A stretch of DNA of 32,806 nucleotides from an uncultured Clostridia bacterium (GTDB taxonomy: Bacteria > Bacillota > Clostridia > Oscillospirales > Ruminococcaceae): the NCBI GenBank assembly GCA_947644575.1, contig CANRZX010000005.1:1-32806 (forward strand), in the 5' to 3' direction. The translations under genes and the position numbers were made by a program. Numbering within the stretch: position 1 is the stretch's first letter; every line of letters starts with the position of its first letter. The notes under the pieces were generated by a model, which was not told the origin of the DNA, did no database searches, and saw only the letters and a program-made list of their open reading frames with translations. Of this stretch, positions 2,254-25,879 are shown piece after piece.

Positions 2254-2470
2254 GGAGCCTCTGAGCAAATCGCCGCGCACATCTCGGCGGCAGATTTCCC
2301 GTCCCTCTTTGCGCTGAAAACTTGAAATATTGCAAAATTCTTAGCGGCTATGCCGCTTTAGAATTTTGGTATCCCCCTTGCGGGGACATCAAGTATTCCC
2401 GCGTTTTCAGCGCTTCAATGGGCAAGAAATCTACTCGCCGATCTAACACGTCGATTTGTTCAGAGACTCC
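2254..2470. mobile_element. MITE-like fold-back element, family A copy 1 (217 bp)
   Basis: Ends GGAGCCTCTGAGCAAATCG / CGATTTGTTCAGAGACTCC are near-perfect inverted repeats; flanked by CTAA (2250-2253) and CTAA (2471-2474); shares AAATCGCCGCGCACATCTCGGCGGCA with copy 2. Confidence 0.75.
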
Positions 2471-23087: not shown

Positions 23088-23249
23088 TCAGCGCTCCATG
23101 CCGTGCTTTACGCGGTCGTGCTCCTCGGCGCGCTTGGCGTCGTTGAAGCGGTCGAGCGTGCCCACAAGATAGCCGGTGATGCGGCGGATGCGCTCAAAGC
23201 CCACGCCCTTGCCGTTTTTCGCTTCGATATTGGTTTCGATGTGTGCCAT
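23088..23249 (-). CDS. Small protein carrying NrdD-type glycyl-radical motif (autonomous C-terminal segment of NrdD)
   Basis: 53 aa, below ORF-track cutoff: MAHIETNIEAKNGKGVGFERIRRITGYLVGTLDRFNDAKRAEEHDRVKHGMER; strong SD AGGAGGAAAG; resembles NrdD C-terminal R(R)(V/I)(C/T)GYL...RVKH. Confidence 0.82.
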   Translation of the reverse strand: MAHIETNIEAKNGKGVGFERIRRITGYLVGTLDRFNDAKRAEEHDRVKHGMER

Positions 23250-23340
23250 AATACTTTCCTCCTGTCAATTGATTGCTTCAAAATACTCTGGATGCGTTTT
23301 TGGATACGGGGAGAGGCCAAAGGCTATCCGCCGCGCCTTA

Positions 23341-23562
23341 GTAAACGCTGAATAAATCGCCGCGCACATCTCGGCGGCATCTTTTCCGCCTGTTTTTGTC
23401 TCAAAATCTTGAAATACATACAGTATTCCTGCGATTTTTCGCCTTCAACAGACAACTGCGCCCGCAGGCGCGTCCAGAGGCCAACCGCCGCACAGCGGCG
23501 GCTCTTAGGCCGTAGGAAAAACCTGCTCGTCGATCTGACACGTCGATTTAATCAGCGTTTAC
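23341..23562. mobile_element. MITE-like fold-back element, family A copy 2 (222 bp)
   Basis: GTAAACGCTGAATAAATCG / CGATTTAATCAGCGTTTAC inverted ends (18/19), flanked by CTTA (23337-23340) and CTTA (23563-23566). Confidence 0.82.
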
Positions 23563-23599
23563 CTTACGGGAGGTTCCCCGTCAGGCTATGCGGAAAAGA

Positions 23600-25879
23600 T
23601 CATTCGCAGCCGCAGGCGTGGAACGAGCCGGGGTACAGCTTGCGCAGCTCCTTCACGCGCTCGGGCGGGATGGCTTCGCCCTCGCGGCGCCCGCAGCGGG
23701 GGCAAACCTCTCCGATGACGCCGACATAGCCGCAGATCGGGTCGCGGTCGACCGGGTGGTTGATGCTGCCGTAGCCGATGCCACAGTCGTGCATATAGCG
23801 GACAATGCTCTCGAACGCCTCCAAGTTGTTGGCCGTGTCACCGTCCAGCTCCACATAGCTGATGTGCCCGGCGTTCGTCAGCGCGTGGTAGGGCGCCTCC
23901 TTCTCAATCTTCTCGTAGGCCGAGATGCTGTAGTACACCGGAATGTGGAAGGAGTTCGTGTAATATTCCTTGTCCGTCACGCCCGGAATCTCGCCGTAGC
24001 GCGCGCGATCCATGCGGACAAACCGGCCGGAAAGCCCTTCCGCGGGCGTGGCCAGCAGCGTGTAGTTCATATGCGTGCGGCGGCTGCGGGTGTCCAAATA
24101 TTCCCGCATATAGCGCACGATGGCGAGGCCCTTTTCCTGCATTTCGTCGCTCTCGCCATGGTGGTGGCCGTACAGCGCAACCAGCGTCTCCGCAAGGCCG
24201 ATGAAGCCCACGCTCAGCGTGCCGTGCTTGAGCACCTCGCCGACCTCGTCGTACGGCCCGAGCTTCTCGCTGTCAAGCCACACGCCCTGCCCCATCAGGA
24301 ACGGGAAATTCATCACACGCTTTTTGCTCTGGATGGCGTACCGGTCGTCGAGCTGCTGGATGACAAGGTCCATCATGCCCCGGAGCTTTTCATAGAACAC
24401 CGTCTCGCTGCCCTTGCTCTCGATGGCAAGGCGCGGTAAGTTAATCGACGTAAAGCTCAGGTTGCCGCGGCCGTTCGCAATTTCCTGCGAGGGATCGTAG
24501 ATATTGCCCATCACGCGCGTGCGGCAGCCCATATACGAAACCTCCGTCTCGGGGTGGCCGGGCTTGTAGTACTGCAGGTTGAACGGGCTGTCGATGAAGC
24601 TGAAATTGGGGAACAGCCGCTTCGCGCTGACCTTGCACGAAAGCTGGAAGAGGTCGTAGTTCGGGTCGCCGGGGTTGTAGTTGACGCCCTCCTTCACACG
24701 GAAGATCTGGATCGGAAAGATCGGCGTCTCGCCGTGTCCGAGCCCCGCGTCCGTGGCCAGCAGCACGTTGCGCATGACCATGCGCCCCTCGGGGCTTACG
24801 TCGGTGCCGTAGTTGATGGACGAGAACGGCGTCTGCGCGCCCGCGCGGGAGTGCATCGTGTTCAGGTTGTGAATCAGCGCCTCCATCGCCTGATAGGTGG
24901 CCTTTTCCGTCTCCTTTTCCGATTCCTTCAGCGCGAACGCCTGCGCCTTTTTGGCGGCCTCCTCGCCCACGCGGGGCGCGAGCGCGTCCGTCTCGGCGCG
25001 CAGGTAATCGAGGTCGGTGGCCAGCTGCGGCCGCACGCCCTTTTCCCTGCGGATGTTCGCCAGCAGCTCCTTAACCTCGTCCTGCGTCACGCCCGCCTCG
25101 GGCGCGAGCAGCTCGAGCGCCTTATAAAGATTGATTCCGTAGCGCTTGCGGTACGTCTTGGCGACGCCCGGCGCGAGGCCGTAATCAAAATTCACGATGC
25201 TCTGCCCGCCGTGCTGGTCGTTCTGGTTCGACTGGATCGCGATGCACGCCAGCGCGGAATAGCTCTGGATGTCGTTCGGCTCGCGCAGAAAGCCGTGCCC
25301 GGTTGAAAAGCCGTCCGCGAACAGCTTCAGCAGGTCGATCTGGCAGCAGGTAGTCGTCAGCGCGTAGAAATCGAAGTCGTGGATGTGGATCCAGCCCTCG
25401 CGGTGCGCGCGGCTCTGCTCGGGCGTCAGCAGATATTTGTCGTAGTAGTCCTTCGCGGCCTCGCTGCCGTATTGCAGCATCGTGCCCATCGGCGTGTCGC
25501 CGTCGATGTTGGCGTTGCTGCGCTTGATGTCGCTGTCCGTCGCGTCGGCGTGCGTCAGCTCGTCGAACACCTTCATCAGGTGAGTGTTCATTTCGCGCAC
25601 GCGCGTGCGGGACGCGCGGTACAGAATAAACTTCTTCGCCGCCGCGTCGAAGCCCATGTGCATCAGCTGGTTTTCGACTTCGTCCTGAATCTGCTCAATC
25701 TTCGGTGGCTCCTCGCCGCCCCGCCGCTCGAGCGCGGCCTCCACCGCGTTCGCGACGTCGGCGGCTCTGGCGGCGTCGCCCTCCTGCGCGGCCTCCATCG
25801 CCCGCAGGATCGCCGAGGCGATTTTGCTTTCGTCATACAGAACCATGCGCCCGTCGCGCTTGATGATGCTTTTGATCAT
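23600..25879 (-). CDS. nrdD: Anaerobic ribonucleoside-triphosphate reductase large polypeptide (ATP-cone + catalytic core + Zn cysteines, no glycyl-radical motif)
   Basis: ATP-cone MIKSIIKRDGRMVLYDESKIASAIL; NDQHGGQSIVNFDYGLAP; ends CPRCGRREG...HACGCE stop; start trimmed to ATG at 25879. Confidence 0.93.
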   Translation of the reverse strand: MIKSIIKRDGRMVLYDESKIASAILRAMEAAQEGDAARAADVANAVEAALERRGGEEPPKIEQIQDEVENQLMHMGFDAAAKKFILYRASRTRVREMNTHLMKVFDELTHADATDSDIKRSNANIDGDTPMGTMLQYGSEAAKDYYDKYLLTPEQSRAHREGWIHIHDFDFYALTTTCCQIDLLKLFADGFSTGHGFLREPNDIQSYSALACIAIQSNQNDQHGGQSIVNFDYGLAPGVAKTYRKRYGINLYKALELLAPEAGVTQDEVKELLANIRREKGVRPQLATDLDYLRAETDALAPRVGEEAAKKAQAFALKESEKETEKATYQAMEALIHNLNTMHSRAGAQTPFSSINYGTDVSPEGRMVMRNVLLATDAGLGHGETPIFPIQIFRVKEGVNYNPGDPNYDLFQLSCKVSAKRLFPNFSFIDSPFNLQYYKPGHPETEVSYMGCRTRVMGNIYDPSQEIANGRGNLSFTSINLPRLAIESKGSETVFYEKLRGMMDLVIQQLDDRYAIQSKKRVMNFPFLMGQGVWLDSEKLGPYDEVGEVLKHGTLSVGFIGLAETLVALYGHHHGESDEMQEKGLAIVRYMREYLDTRSRRTHMNYTLLATPAEGLSGRFVRMDRARYGEIPGVTDKEYYTNSFHIPVYYSISAYEKIEKEAPYHALTNAGHISYVELDGDTANNLEAFESIVRYMHDCGIGYGSINHPVDRDPICGYVGVIGEVCPRCGRREGEAIPPERVKELRKLYPGSFHACGCE

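Follow-up and report, generated by a model that had tools for sequence, protein, structure and literature searches.

The locus investigated here raises the question of whether the glycyl-radical loop of an anaerobic ribonucleotide reductase (RNR) can be encoded apart from the catalytic chain of the enzyme, or whether the observed arrangement reflects a broken gene. The window, i.e., the whole analyzed stretch of 32,806 nucleotides (contig CANRZX010000005.1 of an uncultured Clostridia bacterium of the Ruminococcaceae), carries on its minus strand, in this order, a 759-aa ORF for the NrdD catalytic chain (P0001, 23600-25879), a 53-aa ORF (P0002, 23088-23249), and nrdG, encoding the radical-SAM activase (P0003, 22563-23084, TTG start), which matched TIGR02491 (NrdG) above the cut-off. 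P0001 is the only NrdD core in the window; it lies in a different frame from the small ORF, with many stops between the two. Both ORFs were found where a preliminary description of this DNA had placed them, and the small ORF indeed has its own Shine-Dalgarno sequence, with AGGAGG (23258-23263) 8 nt before the ATG and nrdG following 3 nt past the stop. AGGAGG or a close variant precedes nearly all homologous ORFs. Alignment of both ORFs to full-length NrdD, proposed there as a check, showed that they tile a single Pfam NRDD profile (PF13597), P0001 covering positions 2-531 of 562 (E 4e-186) and P0002 positions 533-562 (E 7e-8, above the curated cut-off). Judged by these matches, the core alone is an incomplete NrdD because the motif at 533-562 sits on a separate ORF, and the pair of core and small protein is a complete one.

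The core carries the expected elements of the enzyme up to this point. It matched NF005497 with 1079.9 bits (profile 1-711 of 746), and its N-terminal residues 4-92 form an ATP-cone, the allosteric activity domain (25604-25870, PF03477, E 8e-20). Its closest solved relative is the NrdD of P. copri (PDB 8p23), and the modeled fold of a close relative of the core matched 8p2c/8p23 with an E of 9e-48. In the alignment to 8p23, Cys452 (codon 24524-24526, within YMGCRTR) falls on Cys416, the thiyl-radical cysteine of P. copri NrdD, and is thus the predicted radical cysteine of P0001; the surrounding M450-G451-C452-R453 is invariant in 14 split cores. Neither profile search nor the 8p23 alignment revealed a glycyl-radical motif in P0001, which stops at profile position 531, confirming its reported absence from the long ORF. 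The CGYVG of this ORF had been set aside as radical site; its C716 is one of the conserved zinc-site cysteines. Regarding the zinc ligands, the earlier assignment held in part: the CPRC pair (C726, C729) is conserved and, together with C716, invariant in split and fused relatives (23693-23734), but HACGCE is not a conserved ligand pair and was rejected, since half of the homologous tails are without any cysteine. Throughout the clade, fused and split NrdD alike lack the initial cysteine of the canonical zinc quartet (window 23732-23752, NHPVDRDPICGY).

The small protein was characterized in the same way. Residues 18-49 of P0002 align by phmmer to the glycyl-radical loop of 8p23 (707-738, E 1.5e-7), placing Gly26 (codon 23172-23174), the predicted radical glycine, on Gly711 of P. 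copri (numbering of Cys416 and Gly711 according to PMC11226230). P0002 matches PF13597 only and gives no match to PF01228, the PFL-type glycine radical domain. Across 75 copies the 32-aa loop is nearly invariant, with R-R-I/V-T-G-Y-L conserved and the glycine present in 75 out of 75. Compared with its counterpart in Subdoligranulum variabile, the 53-aa ORF shows a dS of 0.52 at a dN of 0.025; it is under strong purifying selection. At two loci (L097 of genome G132, and L132), a single core is followed by a tandem pair of small-subunit ORFs (44 and 48 aa), representing a duplicated radical subunit. At two further loci (L098 at 4928 and L100 at 969; G084 and G098), the type A nrdD operon has, in addition to its adjacent small ORF, a second, divergent loop gene with a GYLVGD variant close by.

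In order to evaluate how widely this layout occurs, as had been suggested, we distinguished type A, a core with an adjacent small ORF, from type B, a loop-less core with the domain gene elsewhere. Within the same family, 16 out of 61 sampled genomes (the source genome counted) are type A and five are type B, one of the latter (G052) also having a fused nrdD; on order level, approximately 26 of 147 genomes are type A and five type B. The best 80 named loci comprise 27 of type A, 51 fused, and one of type B, the type A loci including Gemmiger sp. An87, Butyricicoccus, Anaerotruncus, and Bacterium 1XD42-1. The adjacent arrangement, with Shine-Dalgarno sequence and ATG, was found at about 40 family or order loci, the two ORFs being separated by 1 to ~480 nt, with differing frames and several stops. 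In type B genomes, the domain gene located elsewhere was the only copy found. The recurrence of the split is far beyond chance, and the split is real and conserved. A different kind of break was seen in G023 (contig C62) and G054 (contig C50), where the NrdD core consists of two ORFs broken inside the barrel (profile positions 196 and ~130).

The source genome, a 262-contig draft of 94.6% completeness, was examined for other reductases and other loops. A second intact nrdD, which would have spoken against the two-piece reading, was not found: the draft holds one NRDD core and three stand-alone glycyl loops, one in the window and one each on C78 and C183, two other contigs. Upstream of both of these additional copies are genes for a VirB4-like conjugation ATPase of the CD1110 family (NF045971) and for an LPD28 protein (neighbor families profile-tested on the C78 copy), which places the two on conjugative elements. 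No large subunit of a class I/II RNR (PF02867) was found in this draft either. PF02867 was likewise unmatched in G003, G402, G451, G012, G029, G049, and others, and the same search picked up a divergent member in G006. As RNR is an essential enzyme, the split NrdD must provide the dNTPs in those genomes where the search yielded no class I/II RNR, a conclusion that depends on genome completeness and the sensitivity of the PF02867 search and leans on the single-contig relatives.

Stand-alone loops come in a ~50-aa form and in a ~90-aa form with an extra beta-alpha-beta-beta domain, for which neither a Pfam family nor a significant match in a fold search was obtained. IMG/VR contains 89 stand-alone loops without an NrdD core nearby; among 40 whole IMG/VR records, which may be fragments, 31 hold the small gene only and five a split core plus the small gene. 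Some of the viral loops are flanked by phage DNA polymerase, clamp loader, or appendage genes. The ~90-aa form also occurs in genomes with fused NrdD, which fits a repair role. One spare gene of the ~90-aa form (L062, G038) lies between a Crp/Fnr-like regulator and an ORF that, judged by eye, resembles a flavodiiron protein, a neighborhood suggesting oxygen-stress control, and L115 likewise has a Crp/Fnr-like neighbor. The small protein could be a mere repair spare, with the core using another glycyl domain, or a regulator or occupier of NrdG, as stand-alone copies also occur on phages, on ICEs, and in genomes that retain an intact fused NrdD, where they are not strictly needed. We regard this as improbable: in many genomes neither an RNR besides this one nor a glycyl loop besides that of the small protein was found, the residues flanking the glycine do not vary, and in the source genome the sole alternative loops are the two on conjugative elements.

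Less credible still is a pseudogene or an assembly or sequencing error, by which a fused nrdD would have been broken by a frameshift or repeat insertion. The fragmented draft genome and the gap itself invite this suspicion, most of its 350 nt being a mosaic interspersed repeat (23336-23564, no strand assigned) with 53 partial matches across the source genome. The same repeat also occurs at window positions 2261-2329 and 2427-2463. In S. variabile (OY725842.1), whose core is 89% identical and whose small protein agrees in 49 of 53 residues, the two ORFs are split ~70 nt apart with no repeat; insertion of the repeat as cause of the split was therefore rejected, and the repeat appears incidental, not part of the two-ORF arrangement. 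An assembly or frameshift error, the other reservation raised at the outset, is contradicted by dozens of relatives split alike, each with Shine-Dalgarno sequence and ATG, in different frames and with several stops, including the single-contig genomes G196 and G451. The low dN/dS and several complete genomes in which no other RNR was found likewise argue against decay.

That the two ORFs are joined into one chain at the RNA or translation level, by an intron, ribosomal bypass, or frameshift, is almost certainly wrong, since neither the split phage nrdD genes known to contain introns or inteins (PMC3653736) nor a phage loop gene with an in-loop frameshift outweigh the varying gap with its stops and differing frames, the separate start signals of each small ORF, the lack of any Rfam match to an intron or structured RNA in the region, and the ~430 kb that separate core and small gene in G402. 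The phage in question, Eggerthella phage EL753P1 (L121, OP172808.1, ~7095), has an nrdD core without loop and, downstream, a loop gene frame-broken by an additional TGACC immediately ahead of the TGYL codons, be it a programmed event, a sequencing error, or decay. On a 247-kb viral contig (L397), nrdD is interrupted near profile position 103 by an ORF of ~205 aa, possibly an intron or homing endonuclease.

With two ORFs tiling one profile, the split recurring among relatives, no second core found in the source genome, and no radical motif in the long ORF, the two-piece reading of the preliminary description gained support, and the locus very probably encodes a functional two-subunit class III RNR. 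The tails of the split cores add information on its origin. In fused relatives, 12-14 residues link CPxC to RRITGYL. Type B cores stop where the glycine loop would begin, ending in FERIKRIR, CERIPRIKV, or FERIHRITE (the last in G270), and show the pre-glycine pattern at the ERIRRI position in nine of nine tails. Of the 40 type A tails, 33 show E-[RK]-hydrophobic-x-x-hydrophobic there, versus 0.2 expected by shuffling; in the core of the window, the relic reads ERVKEL (23645-23662), corresponding to ERIRRI and to a pattern conserved across split tails. The split core would thereby resemble a genetically fixed form of the chain left after an oxygen cut at the glycine. One genus combines several states, G149 having a fused NrdD plus a remote spare gene of ~100 aa, and G203, G012, G170, and G190 the spare gene plus a truncated core. 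In a maximum likelihood tree of 71 cores, split and fused states alternate with 15 changes by parsimony; counting well-supported branches only, at least 8 changes remain for the adjacent and 5 for the remote type. Split cores are no closer to each other (66.3% identity) than to fused cores (65.5%), and with the repeated state changes on the tree this led us to reject a single clean origin. GR-x-x-GE is common to all 40 type A tails and E[KR]L..L to most of them; given these shared tails, the split may have arisen repeatedly, or spread by transfer or recombination.

The small gene is tied to nrdG, which in 55 of 69 measured loci starts -25 to +20 nt after the small ORF. A family outside the order (f55) contains both layouts: in G451 and G377, the core is followed by a ~94-aa small subunit with an extra N-terminal domain and then nrdG, and in G402, G427, and G474, the core stands alone, with small subunit and nrdG together elsewhere. 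This includes the single-contig genome G402, where the distant small gene adjoins nrdG.

As a working mechanism, NrdG would generate the glycyl radical on the small protein, which would dock in trans, inserting its FERIRRITGYL loop into the barrel beside Cys452, and the radical would pass to Cys452 as in ordinary NrdD. Oxygen cuts the glycyl-radical chain at the glycine and class III RNR is destroyed there. For this reason, oxygen damage would cost the split enzyme only a replaceable piece of ~6 kDa. Docking, the location of the radical, and exchangeability of the small subunit are inferred, the last more strongly because the small gene also occurs unlinked, in duplicate, and on ICEs and phages. 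In the NrdD of P. copri, the domain bearing the glycyl radical behaves as a mobile unit that is disordered except in the active state (PMC11226230). A tethered AlphaFold model of a relative (L156, with the intergenic TGA read as W) gave a good core and left the loop unplaced (pLDDT 23-34). We hold the chances to be about even that the radical subunit is exchangeable and separately inherited, supplied from the operon, distant loci, conjugative elements, or phages, and that any copy could be charged by NrdG and re-arm an oxygen-damaged or naturally truncated NrdD.

Compared with known systems, the pair shares with ordinary NrdD (NF005497/PRK07111; P. copri 8p23) the ATP-cone, 10-stranded barrel, MGCR radical cysteine, NxN flap, zinc cysteines, RRITGYL glycine loop, and NrdG partner, but differs in that the glycine loop is a separate polypeptide and the core tail keeps the pre-glycine relic. 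GrcA/YfiD of E. coli and Y06I of phage T4, the spare parts of PFL, are also small stand-alone glycyl-radical proteins, phage-borne too; YfiD and Y06I complete PFL after damage by oxygen, and for another glycyl radical enzyme such repair has only been speculated on (PMC8683613). Like them, P0002 would complete a core without usable glycine and is encoded apart from the enzyme with a complete radical loop, as a 53-aa ORF and in unlinked copies of the source genome and its relatives. By analogy, the small subunit would play for the split core the part of YfiD/GrcA for clipped PFL. Unlike in GrcA/YfiD, its loop is NrdD-type (PF13597, not PF01228), its gene is coupled to nrdG, and it is no accessory in the many genomes where such a loop is the sole one for the only RNR found, its repair function being putative. 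The two-piece NrdD would thus follow the GrcA/YfiD principle outside that family. Other split RNRs, namely class II NrdJab of Pseudomonas and phage nrdA/nrdD with introns, inteins, and homing endonucleases (PMC3653736), share a catalytic chain in pieces; in contrast to those, the cut described here isolates the radical-bearing loop only, is widespread in cellular genomes, and involves a gene tied to nrdG.

Among openly licensed papers, we found no published description of a split or spare NrdD. To our knowledge, the spare-part principle has been shown only for pyruvate formate-lyase; if our reading is true, it would reach one more enzyme of the glycyl radical type. Annotation would be corrected as well, as NrdD appears near-complete in such genomes and its radical site lies in short ORFs that may escape gene callers, and the split NrdD would offer a natural in-trans system for studying how the radical is transferred and how NrdG docks. 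Should the radical loop be replaceable, strict gut anaerobes and their phages would be able to recover cheaply from air without remaking an 85-kDa enzyme.
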